From assembly GCA_914767715.1 (NCBI GenBank), contig OU612066.1, forward strand, positions 9,057,001-9,121,000: 64,000 bases of DNA, read 5' to 3'. A model generated the notes under the pieces. That model was not told where the DNA came from. It worked only from the letters and a program-made list of their open reading frames with translations, and made no database searches. Made by a program: the position numbers and the translations under genes. This document shows, piece by piece, positions 6,513 to 35,125 of this stretch. The first letter of the stretch is position 1; each line of letters begins with the position of its first letter. The DNA comes from Membranipora membranacea. Lineage: Eukaryota > Bryozoa > Gymnolaemata > Cheilostomatida > Membraniporidae.

Positions 6513-6631
6513 CGTGAGAATGGGACGGGAAAAGTATGAACCACCGAAGTCGGGTAGGAAGCATACCATTATGTCACAAGAAGATCAGAACAACGGAAAG
6601 GCAAACAGCTGGGATGAGCTTGAGATCAAAG
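6513..6631 (+). CDS. CNOT6L: CNOT6-like exon 1 of coding sequence (start codon)
   Basis: The acceptor TTATTTTACAG at 6512 precedes 7 nt of leader and the start ATG at 6520. The encoded MGREKYEPPKSGRKHTIMS followed by SWDELEIKG matches the conserved CNOT6 N terminus, which fixes the start. The donor is AAAG|GTAGG at 6631/6632, phase 1. An untranslated exon must lie upstream. Confidence 0.93.
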
Positions 6632-12600: not shown

Positions 12601-15600
12601 TATGTTTTTTTTATATAAAGCACCAGCAGAAGAACTAAACCTTGAAACAAAAGAAAGTCTAGGCTGTCTTATCAATTTATAATCAATCCTATACCTACAT
12701 GACCAGCAAAAACCTTCATACAGTTCTTTGAATCCTTCATAAACTCATCAGATCAAATCATATTTCCTCATTATTATTTCGCAAAAGGTAAAATTTGGGA
12801 ATTTTAAGTTTTTGTAGTAGAAATTCACAATAATAATTGAGTTGTGATTGATGAGCAGCGTTCAGCTACAAACTCAAACTCAACTTCACGTTCAACTTAT
12901 ACCAAATACTTTGTTTTGCCAAATTTTTCGAGGGGCTGTGAATGAAGCTCTTTTTTTGATTAATTTCTCGTAAACATGCCAACTTTTCATATAAAAGAAG
13001 GCCCAAGTAGTGTCATCAAGATTGATATTTATGTCACTAAATTGTTGTGAAATTAATCGCCAATGACTTGTAATTTTGTTAAACACTGTCAAGTTTACTG
13101 CAGTTCAGTGACTCTGTTGAATTGGCATGGCCAAGAGTAGATGACAGTTACAACAAGCAGAATGTGCCTCAAATTTAAAATGTTTTGGTATCCACATATC
13201 ACGGAGGGAGCTGCTTTTTATGATTAGTAGGCTTATTGAGCTTTCATTATCTCAGTCTCTGGTGGATTTAGTCATGTTTGTGTAAAAGGGCAGGTAATGC
13301 TCATTTGTATATTTCACCACTTGAAAAAAAGGGTAGTAGATACTTGATGTATAACCGCATTGTCGTCTTTCCCAAATCCTACTCAAAGCCAGGTATTACT
13401 ACCATGGAGGTCTGGTTGGTTTAGATGCGGCACATGGGGATTAGCAATTTAATCCAAATTCACTGTGAAATATTGAATTAAAATTTGTTATCAAGTGAGA
13501 GATCTCGTGATATTGCAATATACATCTATGAGATCATTTATTGTTTGGTAACCTGCCAAACCTTTGGTTAAGGATTTGTATCTAATCTCTAATGATAAAA
13601 AATGAGTTCAATGCCAGCAAAAAAATCAATCTTATTATTTTATAATCGATTCTTCGCAACAACTTGCAATAATGTGTTAGTTGAGCTTATAAGGTAATCC
13701 ATGATGTTGTCAATGATAAGATCATGGTACCGAGTTGTTTTGTAGTAAAAAACTGCATTTTGTAATGATTGTACAAACCCTCCTTATAACATGAATTTTG
13801 TTTTTACCTAAGATTAGGTCATTTCATCATTAAAGTCATTTCCAAACAAAGGGGGACGTTTCTTTCTAGGCCTTTCATTAACATTTCAATATCTGTTTTG
13901 AAACACCTGCCAAAAAAAAACTTGGTAAATATGCAGTGGTTGATGGTTTAAGCGCAACAAAACATCACAGACTGTTATAGATATTATTGTAATATAACAT
14001 TAGGGTTAGGCCAACTGTAAAAATCTTCTCTATTTTCATAATATATAACACCACAGTATGTTGTGTGATACTGAGTAGTGTTTAATTGCTTTGAATGAGG
14101 TCCTACTGTAACGGTGGGAGGACTTCCTACGATCGCAAACAATATTATACTTCCACAATAAAAGCCGATTTAACTCGATCGGGGACTGACAACTCTGCTG
14201 CCATATAATTGGACAGCAGGTCTGGCCTGCCAACAAGCAATGGTGAGAAAATATCAAGTTTAATGTACTCCAAGTTCCAGAGACCTAATCAGGAAAATGA
14301 CCTCACATCTTCACTCTTCAGATAGATACGTAATCCCTCACCTATAGATCCCGCGATTTATAAGTGAAGGCGGCTATAAGAGAGTAGCATATAGACGCGA
14401 CTATCATTTGAAGCATTTTTATATTTAACTTGGACTAAAACCTATTAAAATCACATAAGCTGAATAGCTCAGTGGTAAAGTGTGCGACTTGTAGTCATGA
14501 AGTTGTGAGTTTAAAACCCACTGAGGGCAGCTTGTCCCTCCAAACTACTCATTTGTAGTGAATGTGTGCCACAAAATTCAAATTTTTCAACAATCAGCAT
14601 ATCATATCTCTCTCACAGTCTTTCAAAATAAATAAAACATGCCAAGAACCTCATACACCGTTCAGCATAAACTGGAAGTATTGAGAACAGTTGAAAAGAA
14701 TAACAACCTTGACAAGACTGCAAGGGAATTGAACATTAATAGACGCTTGATTCAAAGATGGAGAGCTTCCAAACATCAATTACCGATATGATTCACTTAT
14801 AAGACACGGTGTCTTATAGCTGTGGGGTGTCTTATAGCTGTGGGGTGTCTTATAGCTGTGGGGTGTCTTATAGCTGTGGGGTGTCTTATAACTGGAGCAT
14901 TTTTATTTTTTCTGAGGGGGGTGATTCACTTATAAGTCCGGTGACTTATAGGTGAGGTTTTACGGTAAATATTAATTGAGTTTCATCAATAAAATAAATG
15001 ATTATAATATTAATAGTTCAAGGAATCCTAGCTGTGAAATTGATAAGGATAATCTTTATTTGTTACTAGGGTCAACGACCGATTTAAAAATTGAATACTT
15101 GTAGGAATTAAACTAATACAATATCTGGTCGTTTTGATTCTTGAACTGATAAAACTAATCTATGATGAAAATGATATAATTACCTCTCTTATAATAGTGG
15201 TTAAAAAACAAGGTTTGAATCCTGATCAAAATTTGATGCTTATGTAAAAATTCATTGGCATACAGTTATTTAATCTCGCATTGAAAAGGGTGTAAAAGTG
15301 TGGCCTTCTCTTCTAGAATAAAACCAAAGTACTGAGTTCTACAATAAAACCGGCATGATAAGTGATTTAAAAATATAAATGACAACATGAATGAAATAAA
15401 CATCCCAAATTATCACCAGGAAACTACTAAGAGGAATCGGCATGATTCAACACATCTGGACATTCACTTATTACTACTTACAAAATACTACACTACTACA
15501 ACAAACATGGAAATGAGATTCATCTGATTTATTTTCCCTAACTGATAAGGAAATTTATGATTTGACGTAACTCTGAGTGTGATGAAATAGTATAAACCAT

Positions 15601-18600
15601 TAAGAAAAAGTATAGTCATCACATCTGACAGGACAAACAGGAAATAAACAGCTACCCCATTCCTGATTAACGCTACACCCTAAAGTTGTGGCCAAAGATG
15701 TTATTCACAAGCCTAAAAATAAACATGACATAAATAACAACAACTAGTCAAGTAACCATGGCAACATCAATTCTCATCGCCAAAGCAGCACTAGGAAACT
15801 TAGTTCCTGTATGATGCCGCAGATTTTCAGTTTTGGCTCAAAAACAAATAACCATCTTTTATGGATGTGCATGAAAACCAGCCACTCAAAGATTGTATAT
15901 AAATGAGTGTCAAACTAGTTGTTTGCGTCATTCTACTAGTTTTTGTCTTTTTATGAGGATGACTTCTTCATTGTTTGAGGCCAATGAATGACAGATAATA
16001 AATAATCAAATCGATGATGTATAATATAAATGCCGGTGTGCATGTGCCAAAGTTTGGCACTATATTATACATCGCACAAAATTATTGTCATCCAAGGCCG
16101 AGAACATGCTTCCACTTTGCAGATGAGAAAGTTCACAAAATCTGAGGTTTTGAATAACAGCGTAAGCTTGGTTTTTTAAAGCGAATTTAATATGCTGGAG
16201 ACCGTTCTCTGTTTTTGAATAGATCCCGACCTAAAAGTTCGTCATTAAGGTCGGCCACGTTGTCAAGAGTTTCAGCGCTGATTCTCATTAGGAAGTTTCC
16301 TCCTCAGTCTAATCTGCTCCCACGATAATTTTAATATCCTCACTGGTCTCTGCTACATTGGGATTAAATGTTTAATTGATTTAATTAAACCTATTTGTTG
16401 CTAGGTACAGTCAGTCGACCAGGTCTGATATCATCGCTCTGTAGATTGAGCGGAGGATAAGGTGTGACCTCATTGAGGTTATGGAAACAGTAATTAGGGT
16501 GGTAAAAGTTGGGAGTGGCACCGTTTCAACAAGTTATCGCTTTTCGTGAAGAAAGACCCCTTGAGGAATTAATTGTGATCCAAAGCAAAGCTTAAGCTTA
16601 AGATGGACATTTTCGACAGAATTTTCCATTGTTAGAGGATTAGTCTGGGCTCTTTTGGGGGCCCTACATCCTGGTCAAATTCTTTGCATTATCGGATTGT
16701 GGCTTTTTGACTTGATTAAATTGTCAAAATAACAGTTACCTTTACTTCGAAAGGTGTCTTAGCCATCATTTAATTGTAACTGAAATGGGGCATATTAACC
16801 CGTGTGAAACTTTGAGCATAAAGCCATAAAACTGGCGCATTAGATCTACATTAACTTCCTCATCACCATTAACCAAACTTAAACTTCCCTGGTGCAGCTG
16901 TGCATCAAAAACATAAACTGAAAACGTCAAAAACTGCTCGATCCCATTATTGTTTTGCCCTCACCACCCAAATTCAGGCTGCTAACTCCCGATCAAGCTT
17001 ATTCTAAATATAAACACTCAATGTGTCCTACTGGTCATCAATAAGGAATAAGTTAAAAGAAAAGACACTGATGACGTCTTTTTATATAGTTGTCTTTGCA
17101 GGTAAACCAGTTCGATGAAACCTTTTGCCAAGTGGCACTAAACCACAGATCACAGTAAAGGAAAACAATGTCAGGGGTCATTATTGTTGGCCTTCAGATA
17201 TATTCTTATATGGATATGAAATATTAGGTTATTAGGTCTGCTGGCAGAGGGTGAAACAGCTATCGCATTTTTGACTGGAAGTTGTATTGGTGGATATATT
17301 CTCACAAATCTAAACTGAGCCTTGGTCAAAATGAAAAGTCATTGTTGAGTCTGCAAGAAAAGTAGTCTTTGCGTGGGCTTTATGTGCCTGTCGTAACAAA
17401 GAGAAAGGCTGCCTAGAGTATTGGCAAAGGAGAAATAAATTGCCAAATAAAAATCAAATGAACAGTACTAATAGCCAAATCATATAGTCTACACTACTTA
17501 TAACTCATGAAAACTTGTGACAATGCAGTTGTTCTAGGAAACCAATCGAGAATATCAAATCTTTTGCATCCTTCCGTTATTACGTGATAAAACCAGCCTC
17601 CAAATTGAACAACAATTGCCTTTCAAGGAAATTGTCTTGGAGCTCTGGTTTTTTGAGTGCATATATCGAAATTGTCTGACATTCAAATTGGGGAAATTTC
17701 AAACAATTTGAGATGATTGGACAGGCTCCGGTACATGGAGCTGCTAGGCACGAACTGATATGCCTGACGAAAGTGTGAATGTGTTGTTCTGAGTCATATG
17801 TTGAAACCATGAGCCAACATCACTGTAGCGTTAGTTTAAGTGCTCAAACGGTGCAAGATGCTGGTAGAGGCATTTCATTATCAACCACTTTCTCCCCTCC
17901 GTTTAAGTACATACCCATAAAGTGCCATAGTTATGGCACCATGTTTAAAGAGGATAACTCCAAACATTTCGTAAAAATTGAGATGGAGCTATATAAAAAG
18001 ACTGGTCATACAAGAGAAAAAGGCTTTAAGCAAGCTAATGGATAGTTATGTATAGGCAATCAAGACATATTGTTTCATATCCATCATACCAATATGCTGA
18101 CAAGTTCTCAGGATTGCTCGATTTTGACTTGGAATGACAATATATTTTTCCTTCAAAAATTTGGTAAGGTTGAGGAATTATATGGTTTACTACAATGTAC
18201 TGTTTTGTGGCAGGTGTTATCTAGCCAGCAATTTATTAGTTGTCTCACCACAAAGAAGGGGGCCATAACTGTGGCACTTTATGGGTATGTACTTAAACGG
18301 AGGGGAGAAAGTGGTTGATAATGAAATGCCTCTACCAGCATCTTGCACTGTTTGAGCACTTACACTACTGTAGCGTAAACTTTTCTTATTTTCTCCACTT
18401 GAACATGATATTAAGTATCTGTAAAATCTAGAGTATGCTTCATCCGTGCTTGCGTAGCTCTTGAATGCCAAATTAAAATAAAAACATAAAAGAAAAATAA
18501 TGTACATAAAGCTTCATATAATTTAATATCGATGATAAATCACTTTCACTGATTTTGTTTTTGGCTCAGACTTCCCTAACCTTCCCCCCAGGTCATGATA

Positions 18601-21600
18601 GACTGTATATTTTCATGTGTTTTGTATTTCAAGGTCTAAAAGGCAACCCTTTAGCGCCGGATATACAAAGTATGGCAGAGATACATGGGACTGGGAAACT
18701 GCTACAGCACATGATCGACAACATGAGATGTAAGTTATATGTCACCATCCAATCCCCACCCTACCCTCGCCAGCAATAACAATCCTAATCATCTTTCCTG
18801 TGCTCTTCACTCTTTCCCAGCGCTGGTCTTCTCCTCGCCGATGATCTGTGTCCACCATTTGTTTTTTTGGAAAATACAAAAAGCTAGTTCACATTTACTA
18901 GTATTTTCTAAATCGGACATTTCATAAGAAACCAGTGATTGGAGATTGCTAGCAACAGCGTACTGATGAGAACTGCGGCTTGAGATGACGCTCTGCAGTG
19001 TGGGAGTGGGGTCTGTGGTGTGGCCAAGCTTCCTGATCAAAATCAAGATTTGTCCGCTCATATTCATTAACGGCGGTCTTATCGGTGTCATTGTTGGTTT
19101 TTTGTTCATCGTCTTCTCACTTTGATCCACCTATTCCCCTACACACCCCGAATAATCACTTTTATTTCTATTCATCTTGCAGGTAGTCTCATGTTTATGC
19201 CACTTTTATATGACCTGAATAGCCATAAATTGCTCCCTAATCCACTGCCAAATCATAAAACTTTTTCGTGGTGGTTTAAGCTCTTCTTGTGAACTTCACT
19301 TCGTCTTCAGACATTTATGGTCTTCTATGGATTATAATAAGGATTAATCGCCAGGACGGTTTTCAATATTTTGTTGCGGTAGAAAGATGACATTAATTTG
19401 GTGTGATTGAGGCTATTTCTGCACCAAAACAACCTCTAAAACTAGTCTGTAACCTCCTGATAGGGCACAGCTGTATCTGGGGATTAACTTAATTGATTCT
19501 CATTTCCTGTAAACTAAACACACATCAACTGCAGGTTCCTTCCCACCTCACTCCCCACCTCTACCCAAGGAGTTACTCTAACTTCTTGCTCTACCACCGC
19601 TCTGTTTCAGGCCAGCTTCTGCAGACCACAGTTTATCATTCATTAAAGGGTTGAGTGTACCATGAGAGACAGATGTCAGTGGGTTCAAAACTATGTGTGC
19701 AACACCAGCATAAAATCGTTCCAAAGCATCATCATGGGGATTTTTCTTATAAACAGGAATGGACAAAGAATTATGATTGCCGACATGGCTAAGTTTTACA
19801 CATTTTTGTACCAGCAGAAAATGCTACCGATTATCAACGCTTTGCTCCATCTTATTTGATTTGACATAACTTCATGTCACGACAAGACCACCTGACCATA
19901 TGATACCAAGGTGAATAATCTTCGGCAATGGCTGACACGTATTTTTTAACACCTCGCATCTGACATCAATGATTCAGTTAGTCACAGGTCTGGGTCAGTC
20001 CGACAAGCTACCTACAGGAAAAACTAGCCATGTTTTGTTGGGGAAGAAAAACAGGAATCTGTTGGTCCTCATATCATGTTTCTGGTGCATACTCAGTATT
20101 ATGATGTATGCATCTGTCCATAGTAATTTAAAACATAACTTTCCGTGACCAGATATGTTCTAGCAGAGATCCTTACCTAGTAATCTGCAAGTTAATTGCA
20201 TAGAGCTCATTGCTTTTGTGAGCTAGATTTTTCGAATGCCTTCCATTGCAAAGGTATTCTGCAACTGGACTCTGGAACCTAATGACATGGTACTTCTGCA
20301 TGACAAAAACACCTCACCAATCAGAACGTCTGTAACCATCGCCAAACCACCAGCAGGAATTAATGAGGACCAATCTGGACGGATCCAGATATTCTGATAT
20401 TGTCAAAAGTTATCACTATGGTAATGTTAGACACCAGCTGCAAGAAAGCAATGTTCCAAAATAAGTACAGCAATATGAAGTTTGGGAGGAAGTGACTTAA
20501 CTCCATGTTCCGTTCTGCATCTTATTGAATAAAGAGAATCAAATCAATGGGAAGCCATTGTGTTTTATTAGCTGCCAAGCAGTTATAATTTAAAGTTAAA
20601 GAGGAAGGTCATGTCACACTCCCGACTGTAGAAATAGATTGTTTTGACTTCCTCTTCACATTTTAGACAAGCGACATTATAAAACACTACTATTATATAC
20701 TACAATAGAATAAAATGATAGTCTCTGATAGTATATTAAATTTATGTGTAGTCACTGTGGGTGGTTGAAACGAAAGGAAGTGCTATCATCAAGCTTGTCA
20801 GTAGCCTAACGATGATTTTCCTGTCGAGTAAAATCCACATTCAAAAAAACGACAAAAATATGGGCCGAAGCAGAGTGAAAGGTTGCTATTCATTGGTTCC
20901 ATAGACGATGTGAGTTACTCATATTCAGCTTCAGACGATGACTTAAAGCAGTAGTACCCTCTCCACGTGGATGGTGGGAGACATTAGGTGGTGGGTAGAC
21001 CGTGTCGTCATAAGTTTATGTATTTACAGGTGCCCTGATTTCTAATCAACTCATAAAAGATTATGTAAAACAGGAGATTTGTTAATCTGATAATTCTGGG
21101 TAATCCTCTTAAATTAGAGACAATGATAGAGATGGTATCAACCCAAAATTAGGAACAATCAAATTGATATAATATTAGAAGCTTAACCTGTCAGGGCAGT
21201 GGCTAGCTAAGCTGACATGCTTCACCACCAAAACATTGGGCTGCGCAAAATTTTCACTGCCATTAGCTTTCGCTGAGAAGAAATTAAAAATAATAATAGT
21301 CTCCTTTTCTGTGCCATAAAATATAAAAACTCGCTCATAAATGGAACAACACAAGTAATAGCTTTATTAATATTGGGAAACCTGCAGTCTCCTCATTAGT
21401 TAGTTAGTTAGTGGTGCCCATTTGAGGAAAACATAACAGTTGTTAGATGTGGTACATAAATCTCTTATACTGCTAAGCCATGACATCCAGGGGCGATGGT
21501 TCTGATTGCTTAGTAACCTTCTCTGTATATCAATTTTTCCAATCTCATTAATCCCTCTCATCATGATTATAATCCTCGAGATTATTGCACCATTCTGGAT

Positions 21601-24600
21601 GCAGTCAGTACCTTGCTGTTTTTCAAAATGGCCTTCGCTTCTTAGTAATGACAATCTATGAGACGTAGTTTTAGGGTGGTTGACATACCTACTTTTTTCT
21701 TTTTTGGGGTACAGTACAAAAAAGTAGCTGTGTGACGAGGCTTTTGTTTACACACTTACACCCTTCTTCATGAAAGAAGCGCGCACCCTGAACTGTAACA
21801 GCACACCTGGCTACAGAAATGTATATGTGTAAGAAGGGAAGAATTAAGAAGGTGCTCCTCTGCACCCACATGGTAGCTGAAAACAATGTTATTGGGCAGG
21901 TTGTATGCTAATGAAGAAGACCTTTTCTACAAATTTGACAAAGTTGACAATGCCCCAACCAAACAACACCCTAATTTGCTGTTTCTTGACCTATAAGACT
22001 GTGTTTCCCACCCCACTTTAGGTATGTGGAGGCAAAGGGCTTGACCACCAGAGCTGCAGTAATGGTGGAAAATGGGTGTGCTGTTTAGTTTAGTCAAGGA
22101 GGTCTATCAATTATGATTGATGGACATATTTAGTTTTTAAATTTGCACTAATTATGATCTCAATCCACAACCTACACTGATTCAAATTTGTTGGCAAGGT
22201 GACAGATTAAAATCACCCTTCTACTTCTACCTGGTTGGCAGGCAAGAAGTATTCCATGTGCAACTGTAAAATCTTTAATGGATTCATGAAAGTCAAAATC
22301 ATTATCTAGGCAGACCTAAAAGTCCGCTCTATATTTAGGTTATATTCTAATTTTCTGGGCGGCTCTGGGATATGTCACAATTTACGATGTCAAAAATTTT
22401 CAAGAACTTTACCAAGTGGTTGAAGAGATGTCTTGTTTCAAATTTGACTACTTTGGAGATCATATGTAGTTGAGTAGTCAACTATTTCCCTTATTTCCTT
22501 ATTAAAAATAATATATGTTGATAAAAACAAAGAATCCAACATTAAATTTGCTATATTCTTGGTATCATACTGGATTTAATTCACCTTATCTTATTCCTTA
22601 AATCTTTGCACCCGTGTCCTCACCGAGGCCGCCGCTGTCTAGATCTATCTTACCTCCATTGATTGGTGCATCCATTTCCCAGAATTCAGTTTATACCACT
22701 AATTATCATCTCTCCCTATTAGTGAGGCAACTCCTGCTGCCAAGAGTTAGCATTCTATGACCATAATTGATCAATCTCAGCTCAGTAAGCATATTACCAG
22801 ACAACAGCTGATCTGTCATAATAGCTTACTCAACATAGGATTAGGCCCATATCGCCATTACTGTACTGAGGTCAGAAACTGTGTCGGAAATGCAGTCAAA
22901 ACATGTCAATACTTTTCAACAAACATTTTTAAATAGTTAACAAAAAGTACTATCTATTTCTCAACAACATCTAAACGTCACTACTCAACTCATCATCTGC
23001 AAAAATGAGACACAGCCAAGGTGTTTATACAAAGCCGATCATTAACCTAGGGTGATAATGTCATGTCAGACTCGTTCTAGATCGATAAGCGCAAGGTTGT
23101 TTACATATAATGTCCTTAAATTTAAGTTTATATTGCATACCAGTGTATGTTTATCTAGGTATTGGTTTTCTTATGAGCAAGTTTTGAGTTCATTGACTGC
23201 TACTGGAGGTGAACCCTCATGTTCATGAACTTCATTATTGCGAAATTTTTGTTTTCTAGACTATCGTTATGAGCTATTTATTTACCAGCAGTTTGTTTTT
23301 CATTTTGATGGAGTAATTTGAACGGTTACTCATCCTGTACCACGTGGACTGAATTGTTCTAGGCAGTGCTTTACGATTGAAAATGTTATAATGTTATCTC
23401 TATTCTCATTGGCTGTTGTACACTTAGCTATGTAGCTATCCAATAAGCTTTTAGCACATTCTCACAAAGCCATGTGACTTATCCACTGCTATATAAAGCT
23501 AGTGCCATGCTTTTTACCCTCTCATTGATCTCAGCAAACGGTTTTATCATTTTGGTTTTGTGACCCAAGCTAAGTAAAACTTTATAGCAAACCACGTGGA
23601 AGTCGTTTTAGTTGAATTACAAACTTTATAAAGAGAATTATTTTATGCACAATCGAGAAGAATTAAAATTTTTATCAGAAGGTAAGCTTACACTTCATAA
23701 TGTATCAGCTTAGTATTAATTAGTTTTTTTTCTTATTCAATATTTTGTTTTCATTTTGATTTGCCCTAAAAATTGTTTTTGCTTGAGGGAGGACATGGCT
23801 TCAATCTACATGTCCAGACATAACGAGATGCAACTTTTAGAAAAATGCTGGGGTGTTTGCGTCTATTATTATTACAGTGACCAGTGCATTATACAATTGT
23901 TGATATTTTCTAACTAGATGGGACGGCAGCGTCGCAGGAATAAGTCTTTACTCATGGAGCAGAATAAAACCAACACGGATAGTGTGGAGGGATGCGAGAA
24001 TTGTAGATTAGCGCAGAAAAAGAACCAACAGCATAGCCGTGCAGCGCTAAGACGCCAGCAGAGTTTGATCAGCGAGGCCAAGCAGAAGGATATTCTCAAA
24101 TACCTGTCCGACTGTGAGAGTGAGGCCGACAGCGCTATCGATACAGCTAGTATCAGCTCCTCATCAGATAACCACAGCCTGGTGTCAGACCACCACATCT
24201 CTTCTGACTCAGATCTCATCTCTAATGATGGTGACCCCTGCTGCAGCACCATCGCCATCAGAGCACCTGCCAAAGTCGCAAATGTGTCTATTGCTGCTTT
24301 CGAGGCTGAGGAGTCTAGGTTGGACATTGAAGCCCTAGCGGAATATGTCACTGGAGTGCCACTGCAAAAATACACAGCTAGAGACACTTGTGTGGAATGT
24401 GTGGACTCGTACAGGCGTGCTTTACATCAGCATCAACATGACCACATGAGGGTCTGCGGAATAGACGATTCATTTTCTATTGATCTCACTGGGCTGGATG
24501 TGGAACTTCATGTCGAGGAATTCTCCAACTGGACCGTTGGAACTGAGACTGTCCAAACAAAGGAACATGGATATTACGTTTCACCAAAAGGGGCCACGTA

Positions 24601-27600
24601 CTACACTGATATTCCGATGGATGCACAACTTCTATCTCTACCCAAACAGCTGATGGTCCCTCCTAGTGAGAGGGCGATGTGTAAGCATTACTTTGTAATA
24701 TCTCTGCGCACTAATCACCTAATCATCTTTATCCTAATTGCCTCTGATAGCTCCTAATAGAGCACCGGATCTTTATGATTCATTCTATAGCTGCACAGGT
24801 GGGGAGGTCCATCTCAATCTAAGCTCTTTGTCATAAACCTCAAAATCAATATTTCTAAACAAAGCACAAAGATAAAGGTCTCCAAAGTTAAACCAAATTA
24901 GAGTACAGCAATATTTGTACCGAAAATTAAGCTATCTTGGATATGCACATAAAGGTGCAATTGGTAGTTATTACGGCTGCTTTGGAGATCCGTTAATCAC
25001 AGCCAAGTAAGAACTGTGTAACTTAGGGAAAATCATACTGTTTTTCTATGACCCCAACTGGAAAGTATCTTTACAAAAACAACGCTGTTTATTTGTGATG
25101 CTATGTTGAAAAGTGACAGTAAACAATCACTGAACAGTATGAGTGTTTTCTTGTCATGCAAACACTCATGTCTTATCTGAAGACGCAAACCTCAAGCAAT
25201 ATCCTACAAAACAAGAAAAAAACAACAATCATTCATCTCTGCAAAGTTATTACAAACCTCTTGCGCACCACTAATCAATTTTGACAAGTATCCCCCTGGC
25301 TTTGTTTTTTAGTCTAGCCTATTGTGTGGGTATAAATGACTTGTGGTTTTGGTTGGCCAAGATTTTGTGATCACAAATACACAAACCATTTATTGGCCAT
25401 CAATCGCTATCGTCATAAACCACAGCCATTTCATAGCCATTCACTACTAAAACGCATGTAGTTGGATGTTTCAAAACTAAAAGAATTCAGCTCAGACCTC
25501 GGGATTAGCATTATTGCCTTTGTCTTGAGGAAACCACCAACTTTCATTTGGACGAAAGGATATAATTGCAGATTACTCTTTGTCTGGTTCATAGGGTTGA
25601 CAAAGTAACATTTGGCATTCTGGTCACATTCAGTGTTTTCACTGAGAAGATAAGTATCGCCTCAAGTTCTCAGGTGTTCTTCACCCCTGTAGATATGTCA
25701 TTGATCGTCGAGGTCAGTCCATCAACCTTACTGGTGTCTTAGTGGCCAGGATATTCTGCATGTCAATTACGTGCCAGAAACTTGTTCCAGGGGATGATGA
25801 CCCAAAAATTTTCCATTTTTTGGCCATCAGCCAAGCGGTCAACAATGTATTGCGTGCACATTTTCACCTGCGTCAGTCACAAGACTTGTCGCCTCAACTG
25901 AGCTCTAGGAGCCATATTGTTATTGTGTAGTTCACTTCCACTTCTCTATAACAGCAGATTATCAATGTAATAATTATAATATTGACTAGGCGAATAATAG
26001 TAATGACCTGTTTTACCATTAGAAATTTTGTCAAAGTCTGTTATTATTTTCAGTCAATGGTTATCAATTACGGGCTGATGCCTTATGCAGTTATGCCGTA
26101 TGTACAAAATATTCTTCATCATACACAATGTTTATTAATCTATAACACGGGCTCGGCCTGGCTATGAGTTTGAACCCAATAATTATTGTTGACGAAGTTT
26201 TATGTGTTTCACAATGTCGCAAGAGGCAGTGTGATTTCACAAGCCAGGAACAACAAACGAAAATCAAACTATCATTTCCCCGGATTCCTTCCTCCTGATT
26301 TTTTTCCTTCTTCCTACTCCACTGAAAGCTTAGTCATCAGTATAAGTACACTGAGTATCCAGGAACAATGATTAGGACAGAGACTTGTAAGCCTCTGTGA
26401 CAAAACAACAATCTGCATGCAGCTACAAGGCTACGCTGTGGTCTGCTCTATGGCTTGCAAGGAAGTGGTAACTGGTTGTGGGAGCCCATCTTCTAAGAAC
26501 TTGCCATCATCCTAATCATCTCGATTCATCATCATCGTTTCATTGCTATCGATGAGATTTTCATATGGCAGCAAGGATCATTGGCTTATTGTAAAAACTA
26601 TATCTCGATGATGTTGGCAGATGACAGTGGTCATCGTCATATTGATATGTGCAACCTCATCCTTCTTCTAACAACAAAGCATATTAGTTTCTATGTGTTG
26701 GCTGCACAAAATCTCGCCATTTGTATGCATTTATCCATTGCTGGCCTTTTGCAACAATCTTCTACTCTTTGTTGGAAATGGAGTGTGCTTCTTTTATGTT
26801 CATGTAGAATTGCAACCAACGCAATTACAAGTGATATGTTTTGAAGATTTTCATGCATTGCTGTTAAATCATGCTGACTCAATTGCCTCAACGGTATCTT
26901 GTACTGACGTGTCAGACTCAAAGCTATGAAGTCATGGTCACGCTAACTCTCTTCACACCATGCTGGCACAATTTCATCATGCTCTAACCCTGCACATTAT
27001 ACCGACTGTATTGTATGTTTCTATTGTAGTTGATGCCACACACCCACCACAGAGACCATGGATCCCTCTGTCACATCCAGAAAGAAACAAACCAACTGGT
27101 GAGCGGTCTCATTACAATCTAATGAAGCATATCATTAATCTTATTGTTAATGATGTCAGCCATGTGTCATCTAGTGTAGTCACATTTTATGGTCATAGGC
27201 CATGTCGCTCATTGAAGCACCAAAAATACTGCATTATAGAACTGGTAACTGTACTTTGTTACAGTAGTTTGGGATAATGGGAGGTTTTTACAATCAGCAT
27301 GGGTAAGGCAACCCTAGTCGATTTGCATCTTCTGACATCATTGTGGTAATTTTTACCAAAATTTGGTAATATTATGATCATGATTATGAACTCAAATATG
27401 TAGACGTCTGTAAGAGTTTTGACACATGTAAAAGACTTTTTATCTGAGTCATAATTAGAGCTGGTTAATCACGATGGTGACTGATAAACTAGTGCCGTCC
27501 TGACATCTATCAGCCTCAAATACTGTTATTATCCAAGTTTTGACACACCACTAAGGGTTGACAACCCACCCATTGTTGCCAAAAGTTTTGACAAGTTGTT

Positions 27601-30600
27601 TAAAAAACTGTCAATAATTGGAACTGGAAAAAAGTGGCAAACTGGTTGAATTGTATTAATTAGACTAATCAAAGTACTGGCACCTTTTCATTCTCCGTGA
27701 TTGACCCTTGAGAGACAAAACAATTTCAAAATGACAAAATTCCCTGAACTTCATACAGCAGCGCGTCATAAATACACGATGCTGTGTGATGTTTGTGCTT
27801 TGAAGTTGAAATTTTATGGAGTACTTCCTTAAAGTTTTCACTCCGCTGAGTAATGGGCATAACTCATCTTTCTTTATTGACCTCAACCCTGTAATATGGT
27901 TAGAATTCAATACATCCTCTCTCGTGTCGATTTTTTATCTCCAAATATTTGAATCTTGAAATTGGCATGTTTACGCTTCCTGTTGGCTAATAGCTTGAGA
28001 AATCACATGTCACAAGGTCAATTTGATCTCAAGATATTTTGATAAACTTCGATTGATTATAAAGTTTGTTTGGGTGAATCATCTGGTATATAAAGTTTCA
28101 ACAGCGCTCAGGTCAAGCGTAGACAACAAAGACTGGATCTAATTATCCCCACATACCCTCATGTCATCAGATCTGTGTAGATATGAAAGGTGAGAAGGGG
28201 GTGTGAACTTTTGTGAACTTTATACTAGCTGGTTATTTTTATTTACCTGTTGCTGTTTAGCTGAGCATACCTTCTAAGGGTTGAGAATTTGTATATATTT
28301 GGCACAATCTCAAAAGTGAGGACGTCTCTAATTGTTGGCATTCTTATAGCACGAAAACAAAATATTGATGTTGATTGAAAATTGAGACTGGCGCTGGGAA
28401 AAATTGAGTCTCTCTGAATGAAAATTCAAGCAAGCGGACATCTTGTTTTGAATGGCAACAACTTGCCTTTCTAGATCGCCCAGACTAATTCTCGAGTATG
28501 GAAAATCGTGGTAGCGTGTGAGGGGGTACAAACTTGGCCACTTCCTGAGTTTTCTAGAGCCTTTTGAAGAGGTACTTGCTAAAATATGAGTGAAATCTGC
28601 CCAACAAAACTGATGGATTTTTAATTATTATTCAGTCACTTATAGCTACTTGAATTAATTTTTCTTGTCGGGAGTTACTACTCTCCAAAAGTCAATGGCT
28701 CTTGTCTTTGCCCTCTGCACGTATTTTAATTTTTAGTCAGAAGGTCTTGATGATAGTTATTACTCTCTAAAAGTCAACGGCTCTTTTCTTGACCCTCTGA
28801 ACCGTATTTTAATTTACGTCAAATAGGACTAGGCGTCCAACTTCAGACAAGCACTTCAAACAGAAAACTGACCATTGGCTCCAGAAGCTGATCTTAGTGA
28901 CCTCATGTTATGGACAGGGTTGTACCCATGATTCCAATTACACCTATTTAAAGATAAGAAACAAATTTATTTGGACCATTATTGTAAGCCTGTTGGCAAA
29001 AAGCACTTAGAACAATCTTATCCCCCTTATTCATCTGCTCCGTTTTTAACAATATAATTGATTAAACTGTTCTTTCTTTTAGCTCTATTTACCGTAATGT
29101 GTTACAATGTGCTGTGTGATAAATACTGCACCCGTCAGCTATATGGTTATAGCCCATCGTGGGCGCTACACTGGGACTACAGAAAGAAAGGTCAGTGTAA
29201 AGTAACAGTAACCTTAGCTTTGTTAGTTGATGGTATGAAGATAAAAAATGGTTTGGCTTCATCCGGATATCTAAATCCATGACCTAAGCAAGCAGACAAA
29301 ATACCTAAGATGGCTATTTTATACACAACAAACAGCCACTGGTGCTCCCACCAGGTTAACTACCTATCAATTGCAATTAATTGCTCCTTTGATCACTTTT
29401 TTTTGCATTCTGTGGAGCAATTAATTGCAACTTGCCATTGCTAAATCGCTTTCTCTTTATGTCTGTGTGGGAAACTATTGGGGACATATATACTCTTAAT
29501 CCCTCAAATCGGGTAAATGATGTCTAGTCATTGCCTCGTCTCAGAATCAAAGCCTGCCGGTATATAGAGAAGTCTGTTAGGTATAATCTCATTAGCTTAT
29601 TAATGGTAAGAGAAATGCTTCCTTTTTTCCTTCTGGTTCAACAGGTAACTTGACTAACCGTTGATATCACCGGATAGGTTATTGAGCAAGAGTAGCTACC
29701 CCAATCAAAGTCTTTCTTTGGCCAATTAATCATCTTTGTCAGAAGCTGGGTCCACTATAAATTATGCAAATGAATTCATATTATTTTTATCAGCAGTATA
29801 ACAAAGTGAAGACCATCTGCTACATTTACGACATGATTGGTGCTCAGTCAAACTGTCTCTTTGTCACCTTCATATCAATAATATATTAGATGATATTTGC
29901 TTAGCATGACTGGAGAGAGTGCTTGAAATTTCTTTGTCACAACTCAGTGCGGAAATTATATTTAGGTTTTGAAGATCTTTGTGCTGAAGCTCATTAGCCT
30001 TGCCATCAGACGGCTTCTTTATCAGACTAGTATAGGAGTGCTGTGTCACTAGTTTTGATTATAAACTTGAGCCTAGTTAATTTTATGAGCCCCCTCCCGA
30101 TATGTTTTATGACCAAAATAGGGATTAACTCATCTGATGGTAATCATGTATTATGTCTGTTTGAGTATCCTTATCTTAATACAGGATTAACTTGACACCA
30201 CCCTCATCACTGCAGTGTCAAATCAAGCACAGACTTAGCAATTATACCTCAATATTTAATAGATATCCATGTCTTTGAGGCATGTCAAATGTATTGGCAT
30301 CATTGCAAGGTGCTCATGTTTCTTATGAGGTGTGTAGCAGTTTATTATCAAAGACCTGAGCTAGCGCTAACCTCTACCAATATTTATAAATTATGTTCTG
30401 TTTCACGGTCACTGGGTATAATAAGACACCATGAGTACAAAGTTCAGCTAATGCTATGTTCATAAAAATGTTGAATGCTTCCAAAATGCTAAGTTTGGTA
30501 ATCAAAGTCAACACTCAAAAAGAATGATCGCCAAAATGGCAGCTTTCAAACTGGCTAATAATACATTATTTATTGCATATTTGGATCCAAGCAAAACCAC

Positions 30601-33600
30601 AAGTATGTTTTATTTATGTTGTAGGAATTCTAGAGGAGATCAGACACTACAATGCTGATGTGGTCAGCCTACAGGAGGTGGAGACTGAACAGTTCTATCA
30701 GTTCTTTGCCCCAGAGTTTGAGAAGGACGGGTACCAGGGTATATTCGCTCCTAAATCTCGTGCCAAAACCATGCAGGAATGTGACGCTAAACACGTAGAT
30801 GGTTGTGCTATCTTCTGGAAGACAAGCAAGTAAGAAAAACATCTGTTTTAGCTTTTTTTGCCCTCTAATCCTAGGCCGTAATGTTAATGCCAAAAGGGGA
30901 GTGTTGGGGGGTGGGTACAACAACCGGTCCTAGTGTATTTAACTTTCAGAATACAAAGTACAGTGGTTGACATACATAGCAACAATTTTCACAGATAACA
31001 ATGACCAGAAGCACCAAGATATGAGGAAATCAACGCTCCAAATTCCCATCACATCAATCTGAGTTGAGTGATAAGCATTAGTGATAAATTTGTTACTCAT
31101 CAGTACTGTGCCAAAATCACCGGTGCTCATCAATGTAACATCATATAGGGCTGATGATTATGTAGTGGGGTTATATTTACACAATAAAACTCGACTGACA
31201 ATCCACTGATATATTCACCAGGCTGTAACTAAACGATCATCAATAACTCCCATAAAGTAATGATAATGTTGGTCTAGTTACGTGAATTCTGTACACGCTA
31301 TTCTGCCAAGATACGTGACTTCTCTTGGTATAAGTATGCTAAAGTAATAATATGAATTAAATGTTACAATGCCTCATTACCAATAAGGGGAGGGGAGCTC
31401 CAGGCTTGAACCTGATGGACTTTGGGCTTGAACAGCTTCACCATTAATATAGAAGCCTCATTTATTACTCGGAAGCCAAAATAAAACATAAAATTATACC
31501 CAATCTTTGATGATTTGGCAGAATAAACTAATTAAAAAATCTAACCACTGCAGTCCATAATTCTGGCAGGTCATCCATCATCGGTAGCATACTGTGTGAA
31601 GTTTGAACTGGTTAGCCATGCAGCTCCTTGAGAGATCAGAATTAATGGAGTGAACATTCCATCAGTCTTGGATATTCAAGGTGACTTTTGGCAAACAGAC
31701 TGAAAAAAACAGTTGAAAGTTTTTCCTGCTTCCTGTAAATCTTACCAATCAGAATTATCGTAGGCCTAGTCAGTCCTCCAGAAATGGACGGCACCCTCTG
31801 ATCAAGGAAAACCAACCAATAAGGAAGTCTATCGATCAAAAATTACTCTCTGGACTGCGGCCACTATAGATAGTTGAGATGTTGTAGCATTTACCCTAAT
31901 TATAGTGGAACCAGTTTGATTGGGAAAAATAAATGAAATTATCATGAGGAACAATACCATCATTAGCCCTGTAGGACACTTACTATCCACATTAAAGAAC
32001 CAAAATGCACTGACCAGTCAGGTAGTTTGCAAATACCATCCAAAGGTATGGCGGCCACCAACTAAAAAATCTACTGGTACACAGTTACCTTTATGAGATG
32101 AACGAGTTGTAGTAGCAGAAATATGTCGTGTGTATGCAGTGTGTACACAAGCATTAACACTTATTTGTAACAAGCATGTTAGGCAGTGACTCACAAAGAA
32201 GACACAACACTATAATCATGACATAAAAACATACCATTTAGCGTCTGGTCTTTGTTTGAAGTACTTGTGAAACATACCAAGGCGTTCAAAACATTTTTAA
32301 GGAAGGGTGAGATTTGTAGCTTTACAGCATTTCCCCACTCATCTACGCACACTCTACAACATATGCGTACAAGTACTCCCCTTGTTCTCCTGGCTACAAC
32401 CACAGCATCTTAACCAGATATCCAATTTGCTAACCGATAATAGTGCCAGGTAAAACCATCAAACAACACTCAATCATTCTTACACTGCTAGAAATGCAGA
32501 TGGATATTGAAATTAAGTAAATTTTTTGTGGGCAGAACCAAGCTAAAAATAGTGACGCTAATCACTATTTTCACACTCAAATTTCTTAAATGTTAATTAA
32601 TTGTCTTCTCATGTTGCTGACACGACACACAGCCCTACTTATTTTTCTCTTATTTTTAGGTTCAAACTGATAACCAAGCACGTCATCGAGTTCAACCAGC
32701 TAGCCATCGCTAACGCGGAAGGCAGTGAAAACATCCTCAACAGAGTCATGACAAAGGATAACATCGGCCTGTGTGCTCTTCTGGAGACCAAAGAGGATAT
32801 ATGGGACAATGGTACGTCTTATCAAAATATAGAGTTGTCATTTTCGGTCATTTTCTGTGGTGCGCACCGACCACATGTGTTGGCACCTGTACCATCTATT
32901 CTTGCTTTGTTATTAAAATCTCCCCATCAAATCAAGCACAAAGCTTTACTTCCATATCCTGGTTGCAGATTCCTGTTTTGATCTCTTCTAAATGCCTCAA
33001 TCCAAATAAAAATATCCAGGGTGGATGTTTCCACATTTTATTCAGATCAGTTGCCTGTTTGATGGTAACATTACACTTTTTAAGCGGAGGGGAGGGATGA
33101 CTTCTGTTGGATAATTGTAGAACTTGATAGGGCAGCAGATGCAATAAATTATTGATGCATATGTGGGTGTCTCAGCGGTAACCATGCCAGCAGGGTATGA
33201 TCACATACCATACCTCGCCAGCCAGCCAACCGCTCTCAAGTGGATAATGGCTGGTAACAAATAATAAAATCAATTTGGGATTTTGATGTGGAGGTATTGA
33301 TAGAGCCTGGGCGATTAATCAGTATTATGTTTTAGAATAGGACAAGTCGGTGTTGAGTAATGTTTTAAGAGCCACTATTTAGGATATATAAGATTAAGAT
33401 TATAATAATAATAATGGTGGTTGGGTTTGATATAATCTCTGCTTAGCCAAACCCACCTGTGATGGTAGTTCATCGTTGTGGGAGATTAGCTGAGGGTTTC
33501 AAATGAGGTAAACAGTTTATAATGCCACGATTTCAAACTTTCAATAATCCGACTATAATTTTGCAAACAGATTATGTTACTGGAATCTCTTAGTTTCGTG

Positions 33601-35125
33601 ATTAGAAAATGTCCTGTGACGCCATTGTGAATTATTCATTTCATTTCATATTTTGGTAGGATTGCCCGCTCCTGAATTGGTTAAGCAGCCAGTATTGATC
33701 TCAACTGCTCACGTTATCTGGGACCCCGAGTTCTGTGATGTCAAACTTGTGCAGAGCCTCATGCTCATGTCTGAGCTGAAGAATTTTGTCGAAAAGAGCC
33801 AGATTAGTTTTAGACCTGGTGCAGGAAAGTCAGACTGCTCTAGTATGCCTATGATCCTGTGTGGAGATCTCAACTCCCTCCCAGACTCCGGTAAGATATT
33901 CTTTTCTTGTAAAGTCAAACATGATTTTTCGTGTCAAATAATAGTATTTCATTCATTCTATTCGGTAACTAATGACAGCTTTTCAAACTGGTTTGAAGAT
34001 AGTTTCCATGAATATGGTTACAGTCGTATATTATTGTCTGGTTACCAACCTCCCCTTTCCGGTGGCCACACGGTTAATACAAAAACTTTTTTGGTTTCAT
34101 GAAATTCTTTCCTTTAAGTGTTCCTGCAGGTTTCTTTATTGATGTGTGTTATCTCTATTTTCAGGTGTTGTGGAGTTTTTATCGAACAGTAAGGTATCGG
34201 TGGGTCACCTGGACTTCAAGGATATTGACTATGAACAAGTTCTCAATTCATTCAGCCACACAAATACCAATGACTACCTCAACCATGCATTCAGCCTCAA
34301 GAATGCCTATGATGAGTCCATCATGGAGTATACAAATTACACGTAAGTTTGTCTGCGTAAGTAAGTCTGTCTGCGTTATGACGGCTATGACGGCATGTCT
34401 GGCGTGGCCGTCACACTGTCAAAGTTGTGGCTAGATAAATAAATGTGCTCTAAAGTTTTTAATTTGTTATTTCATTGGACAGACATTCCAGATGAAATAA
34501 ACCAGCCAATTTCTTGTGTATGCAAATGTATCTTCGAGAGCATAAGTCAGTGTTGAAAATTGTTAATGGAAGATGGATGTAGACCTCAGGCTCCTAAACT
34601 ACACCATGACATGTGGCTGTTATGCTAACTGTGCAATTTGGATCTGAACTGAATGTGTTATTCCTGCATTCCATTGTCTTTTTGCGTCTGTCTCGTATTT
34701 GGCAAGGATTCCGAAAAAATGAGAAAAAGTGCGTTATTACCAGTTTTTGCTGGCTGTTTTGGCTTCATGCCATCACATCATGTGACAAAGTGTCAACGAA
34801 ATGTCAATAACTAAGCATAAAAATAACCAGTATGAGAGAAAAATGTCTTGTTTCGAAACAAGAAGGATCTATTTCATCGGACATGTTTATTTATGTGGAT
34901 CCTCTTTATGTTTTTAGATATGATTTCAAAGGAGTGATCGACTATGTGTTTTTCTCTGATAACCACATGAATCCACTTGGAGTGCTCGGACCGCTCGAGA
35001 AGAACTGGTTCACAGAAAACAAAGTTGTCGGGTGTCCCCATCCTCATATCCCATCCGATCATTTCTCACTGCTCGTCGAGTTTGAATTACCTGCCTCCAG
35101 AAGTACCCAGACTAACAGGCGATAA
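6520..35125 (+). CDS. CNOT6L: CNOT6/CNOT6L-like CCR4 deadenylase, complete 11-exon gene
   Basis: Catalytic deadenylase subunit of the CCR4-NOT complex: it removes mRNA poly(A) tails as a Mg2+-dependent EEP-family nuclease. Coding exons: 6520-6631, 7269-7410, 8041-8162, 18634-18729, 27030-27098, 29083-29190, 30625-30829, 32660-32811, 33660-33890, 34165-34342 and 34918-35125. All ten junctions keep the frame and the product is 540 residues, close to the roughly 555 of vertebrate CNOT6/6L. Residues about 39-140 are leucine-rich repeats, which in this family bind the CAF1 (CNOT7/8) partner. The nuclease domain runs from about 180 to 540. Visible active-site residues are Asn189 (MCYNVLCD), Glu234 (SLQEVE), Asp405 and Asn407 (CGDLNSLPDS) and His520 (PSDHFSL). 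I cannot separate CNOT6 from CNOT6L; most invertebrates have one copy. An internal alternative start is described separately. Confidence 0.96.
7269..7410 (+). CDS. CNOT6L: CNOT6-like exon 2 (first leucine-rich repeats)
   Basis: The acceptor is GACATTCAG at 7268 and the donor AACAG|GTTTGA at 7411. The exon encodes residues 39-84 with LRR motifs LRVLYLNDNQLTRIP and LQYLDLSSN. The phase joins exon 1 through a glycine and exon 3 through an arginine. Confidence 0.93.
7511..7614. mobile_element. Hairpin MITE with 26-bp terminal inverted repeats
   Basis: Positions 7511-7536 and 7589-7614 are inverted copies (TGCAAGTAAGTGTAATGATT onward) with two mismatches in 26 bp, separated by a simple ATC-rich loop. 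It lies in an intron of the CNOT6-like gene. The size and structure fit a small non-autonomous foldback element; no coding capacity and no clear target duplication are seen. Confidence 0.65.
8041..8162 (+). CDS. CNOT6L: CNOT6-like exon 3 (leucine-rich repeats)
   Basis: The acceptor is TTTTTGTCACAG at 8040 and the donor AAATTAG|GTGAGT at 8163. The exon encodes LRGLPAEIGDMVELRELYLN and then NNHLRLLPFEMGKLFQLQ, the two best-conserved LRRs of the family. Confidence 0.95.
8729..9121 (-). mobile_element. tRNA-derived SINE with an internal octamer satellite
   Basis: Read on the minus strand, the element begins with a tRNA-like head. Box A (TGGTGTAGTGGTTAG) is at 9111-9097 and a perfect box B (GGTTCGAATCC) at 9066-9056, as needed for an internal RNA polymerase III promoter. 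A non-tRNA body follows, then a tract of TGTATCAG octamers, a unique 3' part containing GGGGCACCGAATGGG, and a terminal ATT repeat (8746-8729). Head, body and short-repeat tail are the classic SINE layout. Target-site duplications could not be identified. Confidence 0.78.
8828..8937. repeat. Octamer microsatellite (GATACACT)n, about 13-14 copies
   Basis: Near-perfect head-to-tail GATACACT units fill this interval inside the SINE, with diverged related units (GATACATG, CATACGAT) on both flanks. This suggests expansion from a short tandem already present in the SINE body. Confidence 0.95.
10105..10150 (+). other. Weak tRNA-like head, possible SINE fragment
   Basis: GGTGAGATGGTGCAATCGGT and the following TAGTGCGC resemble the 5' half of a tRNA with a box A (TGGTGCAATCGG). 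No acceptable box B or folded 3' half follows, so this is not a tRNA gene. It may be the head of an old SINE. Confidence 0.3.
14457..14535 (+). other. tRNA-like pseudogene or SINE head
   Basis: The box A TAGCTCAGTGG (14465-14475) fits the consensus exactly. The box B-like GAGTTTAAAACC is degenerate (C to T in GTTC), the T stem has a mismatch, and the acceptor arms (AGCTGAA and GGGCAGCT) do not pair at standard spacing. I call it a degenerate tRNA relic or the head of a SINE inserted in the pogo-like element. Confidence 0.45.
14639..14791 (+). pseudogene. Remnant N-terminal HTH domain of a pogo-like transposase
   Basis: A 50-residue ORF begins MPRTSYTVQHKLEVLRTVEK and continues with LDKTARELNINRRLIQRWR. 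This is the pattern of the DNA-binding helix-turn-helix at the start of pogo/Tigger (CENP-B or Brinker-like) transposases. It normally binds the element's own ends. Here it stops after 50 residues and no DDE domain follows, so it is a relic, although the HTH itself is unbroken. It sits inside matching terminal repeats, which supports the assignment. Confidence 0.7.
14809..14893. repeat. 18-bp tandem repeat inside the pogo-like element
   Basis: The unit GTGTCTTATAGCTGTGGG is repeated almost perfectly nearly five times. It resembles the subterminal CTTATA motifs of the element, so it may be an amplification of subterminal sequence. Confidence 0.9.
16016..16073. repeat. Nested inverted repeat (two hairpins)
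   Basis: GATGTATAATATA (16016-16028) is perfectly inverted at 16061-16073. Immediately inside the right arm is a second hairpin, GTGCCAAA-G-TTTGGCAC (16044-16060). It is located in the large CNOT6-like intron. It may be a tiny MITE; no coding role. Confidence 0.7.
17833..18366. mobile_element. Non-autonomous DNA element with ~105-bp TIRs and 10-bp target duplication
   Basis: The left arm (17833 to about 17938) and right arm (about 18261 to 18366) are inverted copies of each other at about 95% identity by eye, with ends AGT(G/T)TAAGTGCTCAAAC. The identical 10-bp direct repeat ACTGTAGCGT flanks it at 17822-17831 and 18367-18376, with one extra T on the left. Long TIRs with a 9-11-bp duplication are typical of Mutator-like elements. 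The 320-bp centre encodes nothing recognisable. Overlapping ORFs on the two strands share a peptide because the arms are inverted copies. Confidence 0.8.
18634..18729 (+). CDS. CNOT6L: CNOT6-like exon 4 (LRR cap)
   Basis: The acceptor is TTTGTATTTCAAG at 18633 and the donor AGAT|GTAAGT at 18730, phase 1. The exon encodes LKGNPLAPDIQSMAEIHGTG and KLLQHMIDNMR, the end of the LRR domain. It follows a 10.5-kb intron. It is the exon that the proposed alternative first coding exon (23918-24680) would replace. Confidence 0.93.
19578..19823 (-). other. Protein-like ORF of unknown origin, 81 codons stop to stop
   Basis: The open frame has reasonable codon diversity and reads LSHVGNHNSLSIPVYKKN and then DDALERFYAGVAHIVLNPLT. 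No family was recognised, and no initiating ATG or pair of splice sites clearly defines it. A possible acceptor (AAAACTTAG) precedes CATGTCGGC. It may be a decayed transposon or gene fragment within the CNOT6-like intron, or chance. Confidence 0.25.
23341..23520 (+). promoter_or_regulatory. Internal promoter: inverted CCAAT, CCAAT, TATA box, E-boxes
   Basis: In order: E-box CACGTG (23341-23346), ATTGG (inverted CCAAT, 23408-23412), CCAAT (23440-23444) and TATAAA (23492-23497). Transcription would then start near 23521. A second CACGTG (23593-23598) follows in the proposed first exon. The spacing is that of a textbook TATA/CCAAT polymerase II core promoter, and the next plus-strand signals are a clean donor, acceptor and long ORF. 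Start-site mapping is inferred, not seen. Confidence 0.62.
23521..23681 (+). other. Proposed 5' untranslated exon of the alternative CNOT6-like transcript
   Basis: It starts about 25 nt downstream of the TATA box and ends at the strong donor CAGAAG|GTAAGC. It contains one upstream ATG (23645) in a weak context; joined to the acceptor at 23917 it would make a 20-codon uORF that overlaps the main ATG in another frame. The 5' boundary is an estimate. Confidence 0.5.
23918..24680 (+). CDS. Alternative first coding exon of the CNOT6-like gene (254 codons), or nested gene
   Basis: The acceptor TTTTCTAACTAG ends at 23917, directly before the ATG. The ORF stays open for 254 codons to the donor GCGATGT|GTAAGC at 24681, phase 1. 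That is the phase exon 5 (27030) requires, so splicing would read SLPKQLMVPPSERAM-F-DATHPPQRPW into the complete nuclease domain, giving 637 residues. The segment starts with a basic stretch (MGRQRRRNK), has CxxC at residues 26-29 and 158-161, a Ser/Asp/Glu-rich low-complexity part (about 64-105) and an HQHQHDH cluster near 170. I recognise no family. Codon use looks coding, unlike the intron around it. The alternative is an independent nested gene; no other downstream exon was found. Confidence 0.68.
27030..27098 (+). CDS. CNOT6L: CNOT6-like exon 5 (linker)
   Basis: The acceptor is TTCTATTGTAG at 27029 and the donor CAACTG|GTGAGC at 27099. The exon encodes DATHPPQRPWIPLSHPE and RNKPT, matching the proline/tryptophan-rich linker before the nuclease domain. 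It accepts a phase-1 donor, either from exon 4 or from the alternative exon at 24680. Confidence 0.92.
29083..29190 (+). CDS. CNOT6L: CNOT6-like exon 6 (start of nuclease domain)
   Basis: The acceptor is TCTTTCTTTTAG at 29082 and the donor GAAAG|GTCAGT at 29191. It encodes LFTVMCYNVLCDKYCTRQLY and the rest of the first nuclease strand. Asn189 in the MCYN motif is an expected metal/active-site residue. Confidence 0.96.
29371..29430. repeat. Perfect 17-bp inverted repeat
   Basis: TTGCAATTAATTGCTCC at 29371-29387 is inverted perfectly at 29414-29430, with a 26-nt T-rich loop. It lies in the intron after exon 6 of the CNOT6-like gene. It could be a small MITE or an RNA hairpin. Confidence 0.8.
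30625..30829 (+). CDS. CNOT6L: CNOT6-like exon 7 (catalytic glutamate)
   Basis: The acceptor is ATGTTGTAG at 30624 and the donor AGCAA|GTAAGA at 30830. It encodes residues 218-284, including ADVVSLQEVETEQ with the metal-binding Glu234, and HVDGCAIFWKTSK at the end. Confidence 0.96.
32660..32811 (+). CDS. CNOT6L: CNOT6-like exon 8
   Basis: The acceptor is TTATTTTTAG at 32659 and the donor CAATG|GTACGT at 32812. It encodes EFNQLAIANAEGSENILNRV followed by MTKDNIG, a highly conserved CNOT6 block. The last residues (LETKEDIWDNG) fall in a loop that varies in the family. Confidence 0.95.
33660..33890 (+). CDS. CNOT6L: CNOT6-like exon 9 (catalytic Asp/Asn)
   Basis: The acceptor is TTTTGGTAG at 33659 and the donor CTCCG|GTAAGA at 33891. 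It encodes STAHVIWDPEFCDVKLVQSL and later MILCGDLNSLPDSG, with Asp405 and Asn407. In place of the usual AHMHWDP, this copy reads AHVIWDP. Confidence 0.95.
34165..34342 (+). CDS. CNOT6L: CNOT6-like exon 10
   Basis: The acceptor is CTCTATTTTCAG at 34164 and the donor TACAC|GTAAGT at 34343. It encodes VVEFLSNSKVSVGHLDFKDI and a segment ending in SIMEYTNYT, aligned with the family stretch that ends in YTNYT. Confidence 0.94.
34918..35125 (+). CDS. CNOT6L: CNOT6-like exon 11 (catalytic histidine, stop)
   Basis: The acceptor is TTATGTTTTTAG at 34917 and the stop codon TAA is at 35123-35125. It encodes YDFKGVIDYVFFSDNH and CPHPHIPSDHFSLLVEFEL, with His520 as the catalytic histidine. The last nine residues are a short polar tail. 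Confidence 0.96.

Follow-up and report, generated by a model that had tools for sequence, protein, structure and literature searches.

A CCR4 gene of the bryozoan Membranipora membranacea with an alternative first coding exon in place of its leucine-rich repeat exons, and related CCR4s in molluscs and a brachiopod

The CCR4 gene and its alternative first coding exon

We analyzed a 64,000-nucleotide stretch of Membranipora membranacea DNA (contig OU612066.1, positions 9,057,001 to 9,121,000; hereafter the window, in whose numbering all coordinates are given), the plus strand of which carries a CNOT6-like (CCR4) gene. Its coding parts were located by local tblastn, using human CNOT6L as query. 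The canonical 5′ half consists of four exons coding for leucine-rich repeats (LRR) at 6520-6631, 7269-7410, 8041-8162 and 18634-18729 (+), which were recognized by tblastn, exon joining and Pfam matches to LRR_8, LRR_4 and LRR_14. The exons that follow (27030-27098, 29083-29190, 30625-30829, 32660-32811, 33660-33890, 34165-34342 and 34918-35125, all +) encode the end of the linker and the EEP nuclease up to a TAA stop codon, as judged from tblastn, joining, PF03372 and active-site residues. After joining, the canonical product is an uninterrupted protein of 540 aa with LRR repeats and the EEP nuclease.

Within the large intron ahead of exon 5 (27030-27098) lies an alternative first coding exon, 23918-24680 (+), supported by the homologues and the fusion protein described below. 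It begins with the ATG at 23918, comprises 254 codons plus one nucleotide, ends at a GTAAGC donor and is in frame with 27030, as the original prediction had proposed. Its open frame, 279 codons from stop to stop, is the longest in the window, and among 100 sequences of 64 kb simulated from a first-order Markov model none contained a frame of 254 codons (longest 194). Exon 4 (18634-18729) and the alternative exon agree in the phase of their ends (phase 1) and in their last base, a T, so that either can be joined to exon 5 at 27030, and either junction yields the identical split Phe codon, T|TT.

A protein search with the 254-residue segment, proposed as a check in the original prediction, covered approximately 5.8 billion proteins and returned eight matches at E ≤ 10, one of which was the window itself. 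The other seven (P0002-P0008, on contigs of 1.4-10.9 kb) align over the full query length with 49-85% identity. In all seven the similarity stops at '...PPSER.[ML]CK', where the residues C-K are what the unspliced donor (T|GT AAG) encodes: identity to the window over the exon part is 54-86% (128/238 to 216/250), and past C-K six homologues have no match or a single one, the nearest, P0002, having 9 of 23. The exon is thus conserved in its coding sequence, its donor and its phase. Compared with PDB sequences the exon gave zero matches up to E 10, and a Pfam scan (E up to 10) found neither an LRR nor a zf-MYND family in it. An antisense frame at 23914-24426 (-) gave a single Pfam line at E 0.43, which we took as nothing.

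The exon joined to the nuclease in a relative, and homologous forms in other phyla

The form predicted to arise by joining 24680 to 27030 was sought using residues 1-254 of the resulting 637-aa protein as query, with a length filter taken from the whole protein. This gave one match at E ≤ 1 among 3416 candidates: P0009, a protein of 631 aa carrying PF03372, in the Pfam scan of which an LRR was not found. P0009 aligns in order with the whole of the predicted fusion (398/642 identical) and crosses the predicted 24680^27030 junction without a gap (...PPSERAM-F-DATHPPQRPW...). Whatever the nature of its contig, the joined form of exon and nuclease exists, full length, in a relative, and the point of joining is that of the original prediction.

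With full-length P0009 as query, 7993 candidates were scored, and the best 120 of 550 matches were listed. Counts of LRR-less forms cover entries of at least 600 aa. Among the matches listed there were, besides P0009, 19 such forms. Sixteen of these come from Lingula, 14 molluscs (bivalves, gastropods and a chiton) and one JGI contig, and 11 of the 16 carry the database name 'uncharacterized protein'. Their N-termini have the same junction as the window form and align collinearly with the bryozoan N-terminus, but are about twice as long (475-564 against 254 aa).

Profile-profile comparison of the two groups with hhalign gave a probability of 97.6 and a score of 89.9 over 35 columns; the best of 40 column shuffles reached 28.1 and a reversed profile 25.7. 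This best block is the core L..LA.YVTGVP...C..C at 24326-24400 (+), which contains the second CxxC motif (C158, C161); the first (C26, C29) lies at 23993-24004 (+). All four cysteines are invariant in the 9 bryozoan-type and the 16 mollusc/brachiopod-type rows, all 25 proteins having two such motifs and no more. A second collinear block, IDLTGLD at 24479-24499 (+), in which D189 and D194 are conserved, scored 29.8, hardly above the shuffles. The LPKQLMVPPSERAM block ahead of the junction, at 24638-24680 (+) with the donor T|GTAAGC, shares M246, P248 and P249; this PP.E block is weak alone, and in hhalign only the first block was significant on its own. At set thresholds, 23 residues are conserved in both groups, against 1-7 columns when one side was slid, the count of 23 coming from a joint alignment, a procedure that favors shared columns. 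The window exon fits the signature of the lophotrochozoan LRR-less forms: two CxxC motifs, LA.YTTG.PL, IDLT..D, PP.E and a junction before PPxRxW.

At the IDLT block, the pattern [VI]DL[TS] is matched by 6 of the 9 bryozoan-type rows and by 13 of the 16 others; the block resembles a SUMO-interaction motif, which we take as a lead only. PAM2 (PABP-binding) and eIF4E-binding motifs were sought by eye, and none was seen in clean form.

Three arthropod LRR-less forms, P0022, P0061 (Panonychus) and P0077 (Leptodora), are spliced at the same point. Homology of their N-termini to the lophotrochozoan ones was considered and rejected, hhalign giving non-significant E values of 0.11 with the mollusc/brachiopod profile and 0.68 with the bryozoan profile; against the bryozoan-exon profile, the best-stretch E values of the three were 1.3-2.8. 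By eye, stretches resembling GxPL[IV], CxxC and D-L-E-I-K-F occur in similar order, not all motifs being present in all three. Conservation of the exon, its junction in a relative and an N-terminus common to bryozoans, molluscs and Lingula are results of direct comparison.

A probable second CCR4 enzyme and its possible partners

The ten active-site residues of human CNOT6 given in PMC8216464 (N195, E240, H361, D412, N414, T480, D491, S529, D530 and H531) are all kept in the window and in P0009, and PF03372 was found both in P0009 and in the window's canonical protein. The original prediction, likewise, had the alternative protein keep the nuclease domain. In the PDB, P0009 is closest to CNOT6 (7ax1), at 411 bits, with Angel2 and PDE12 at 95-99 and Nocturnin at 78. 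Nocturnin, Angel1/2 and PDE12 also combine an EEP nuclease with N-termini of their own and no LRR; in contrast to the window form, they are separate genes, and their nucleases are far more distant.

In human CCR4, as described in PMC8216464, a short flexible linker (G159-R163) joins the LRR to the nuclease, and the nuclease domain is active in isolation. The exon junction falls at about the position of this linker, just before PPxRPW. That the LRR of CCR4 binds CAF1, which the original prediction had given as known, is stated in PMC8216464, PMC4033318 and PMC3870282, and in PMC4033318 the LRR is described as believed indispensable for putting CCR4 into CCR4-NOT. A figure legend in the same paper mentions, without detail, that the sizes of fly subunits can vary through alternative splicing.

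A further observation concerns His363 (human CNOT6 numbering) in the HWDP loop, encoded here by exon 33660-33890. Of 121 aligned CCR4s, 118 keep it; the window has Ile instead, and both P0009 and Watersipora P0010 have Thr, these three making up the bryozoan clade, in which both kinds of isoform are represented. This residue may help to fix the penultimate nucleotide, according to PMC8216464, and a lineage-specific change of poly(A) recognition is possible.

We consider it likely that this one CCR4 gene gives rise to two enzymes, the LRR-less one working outside the usual CAF1-NOT1 attachment. The canonical mRNA would include the LRR exons, and both mRNAs would share the nuclease exons. The second mRNA would start upstream of 23918, inside the large intron, use 23918-24680 as its first coding exon and, by the joining of 24680 to 27030, encode the 637-aa protein. 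Compared with canonical CCR4, CNOT6 and CNOT6L, this form would have the nuclease of the same gene with all ten active-site residues, but would exchange the LRR, at the flexible linker between LRR and nuclease, for an unrelated N-terminus lacking the known CAF1 docking surface. That N-terminus is acidic and probably mostly disordered, and its two CxxC pairs may bind a zinc ion and so hold a short docking island. The 637-aa form should still deadenylate. Having no LRR, it would not bind CAF1 in the known way and would act as a deadenylase outside the CAF1-NOT1 attachment, other partners of the N-terminus bringing it to its RNAs.

Structure prediction was carried out with AlphaFold2. The exon with 25 residues of read-through, modeled from 9 sequences, had a mean pLDDT (predicted local distance difference test) of 42.5. 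P0009, modeled from 25 sequences, had values of 28-57 by blocks over its first 240 residues, the nuclease being mostly good, and low-confidence helices began at each CxxC. The N-terminus is probably a disordered tail with a small cysteine-held island, although the low confidence may also reflect the small number of sequences.

If the isoform is granted, the alternative that survives best is that its N-terminus is itself a docking module for CCR4-NOT, so that the enzyme stays in the complex and is regulated differently. Plants offer the precedent: according to PMC7105381, their CCR4s have no LRR, and a zf-MYND-like N-terminus docks on CAF1. Loss of the LRR need not, therefore, mean loss of docking. 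The plant protein resembles the window form in having a CCR4-type nuclease with a cysteine-bearing N-terminus in the place of the LRR, and the four cysteines invariant in 25 of 25 sequences would suit such a module. For the LRR-less Nocturnin, too, a possible association with the complex is reported in PMC4033318 and PMC3870282. On the other side, the LRR form is absent in plants, whereas in the window LRR and tail are alternatives encoded by the same gene, and zf-MYND was found neither in the scan of the exon nor in Pfam scans of seven full-length proteins (E up to 1). We lean, with some reserve, toward a tail that provides other partners; that it is instead a docking module is a possibility we take seriously but favor less.

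Isoform, paralogue or nested gene

A number of points count against the account given above. The start of the second mRNA is poorly marked. The original prediction had placed a CCAAT/TATA promoter ahead of the exon, and the motifs are indeed present at 23408-23498 (+) (ATTGG at 23408, CCAAT at 23440 and TATATAAAG at 23490), but they are no better than chance as a possible alternative promoter: the window contains 20 cases of TATA with an upstream CCAAT or ATTGG, 13 on one strand and 7 on the other, and 60 simulated windows contain 7-26 (mean 14.2). Of the predicted first exon with a good donor, now a possible 5′ untranslated exon at 23521-23681 (+) ending AAG|GTAAGC, the donor stood, being in the top 0.27% of GT sites. 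The acceptor at 23918 is weak, with a score of 0.93 (top 27% of AG sites) against 8.0-14.4 in the gene's ten introns, and donor 24680 scores 2.44 (top 21% of GT sites) against 7.5-10.6, a value lowered by its exon-side bases; the scoring matrix was trained on those same ten introns, which inflates both contrasts. The fusion search found a single fusion, in a relative rather than in the window species, and its source, a 631-codon frame on a 2026-nt contig, appears to be a transcript assembly by its length alone. Most mollusc rows are database gene models. When the bryozoan-exon profile was compared with the 16 proteins singly, the full-sequence E value was ≤ 0.01 in 2 and the best-stretch E value ≤ 0.01 in 9; with single-protein matches mostly weak, it is the comparison of the groups that carries the homology across phyla, and chiefly one block of 35 columns. 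Among the rows compared, no named lophotrochozoan has both forms on one contig, the oyster pair P0052/P0086 (an LRR-less form and an LRR protein) being linked by their identical nucleases. As the N-terminus has no confident fold, zinc binding rests on the conserved cysteines. The weak acceptor and donor scores and the single fusion would also suit an alternative transcript that is rare or without function and hence unimportant, but the conservation of the N-terminus, among the bryozoan-type proteins as well as across phyla, makes this quite improbable.

If 23681 is spliced to 23918, the main ATG stands in the context AAG ATG G. The possible 5′ exon also contains an upstream ATG at 23645, whose 20-codon frame would overlap the main start after that splice and could dampen translation.

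Two duplicated genes, one of them an old LRR-less paralogue, would be another source of such proteins, and identity between the nuclease of P0009 and the window's shared exons is indeed no higher than about 65%. The P0009 nuclease is, however, 84% identical to that of the LRR form of Watersipora subatra (P0010), with which it groups at 100/100 support in a tree built from 41 rows of the shared nuclease (three more were lost to the cutting pattern). These two are joined, at 100/99, by the shared exons of the window, which with the common change of the HWDP loop agrees with its bryozoan origin. Identity of the window nuclease is 67% to Lingula, 65% to P0009 and 64% to Watersipora, the latter two lying on a long branch. 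Across the tree LRR and LRR-less forms interleave, branches with good support requiring 13 or more changes from one label to the other, and a single clade of LRR-less rows (16 bryozoan and lophotrochozoan, one identical pair being left free) was rejected (approximately unbiased test, p-AU 9e-48); gene conversion could mimic part of this pattern. The LRR and LRR-less forms of Panonychus have identical nucleases on contigs equally long, and the long forms of Patella and Dreissena match shorter LRR-less or partial entries at 100%, again on contigs equally long. Given the interleaving, the pairs with identical nucleases and the presence of both kinds of exon within one gene in the window, alternative first exons of a single gene are the simplest account, and the two forms are isoforms rather than paralogues on that account; we regard a separate paralogue as very improbable.

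That the exon at 23918 belongs to a separate gene lying within the intron, its splicing to CCR4 being a misreading, is an outcome raised in the original prediction itself and is scarcely credible. In its favor, the exon starts with an ATG of its own on the strand of CCR4 and is preceded by the promoter-like motifs; but P0009 contradicts it by joining exon to nuclease at the predicted codon, as does the homologous N-terminus on 16 other LRR-less CCR4s. What was originally observed is confirmed, and its interpretation is partly supported: the LRR-less CCR4 with the predicted junction exists in a relative and its architecture recurs in molluscs and a brachiopod, and the enzyme may also be uncoupled from the complex or redirected to other RNAs.

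Elsewhere in the window, an inverted repeat whose 109-nt arms, at 17832-17940 and 18259-18367, lie 318 nt apart and are 96% complementary resembles a small foldback element just 5′ of LRR exon 4. Tandem repeats with units of 8, 18 and 21 bases lie at 8805-8937, 14808-14894 and 40261-40382. An open frame at 62797-63114 (-) matches the NAD-binding domain of 2-hydroxyacid dehydrogenases (PF02826, E 1.4e-16) and is probably an exon of a different gene.

The same arrangement in molluscs and a brachiopod implies that these animals, too, probably make a second, differently steered CCR4. We propose, tentatively, a wider statement: that in bryozoans, brachiopods, molluscs and perhaps all protostomes one gene supplies a further CCR4 whose CAF1-docking LRR has given way to a disordered, zinc-binding tail, making a lineage-wide deadenylase that is guided to its mRNAs independently of CAF1-NOT1. 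The extension to all protostomes comes from the three arthropods, whose long LRR-less CCR4s share the splice point. The mollusc sequences are public, mostly without names, and among the papers listed from the open-licence literature none described such a CCR4/CNOT6 isoform; as far as these go, the class seems undescribed. A motif signature now unites entries called 'uncharacterized protein' as one defined class of isoform. An isoform that drops the LRR and is conserved in probably three phyla raises the question of what CCR4 does without CAF1, and oyster, mussel, limpet and Lingula are accessible animals in which it may be put to the test.

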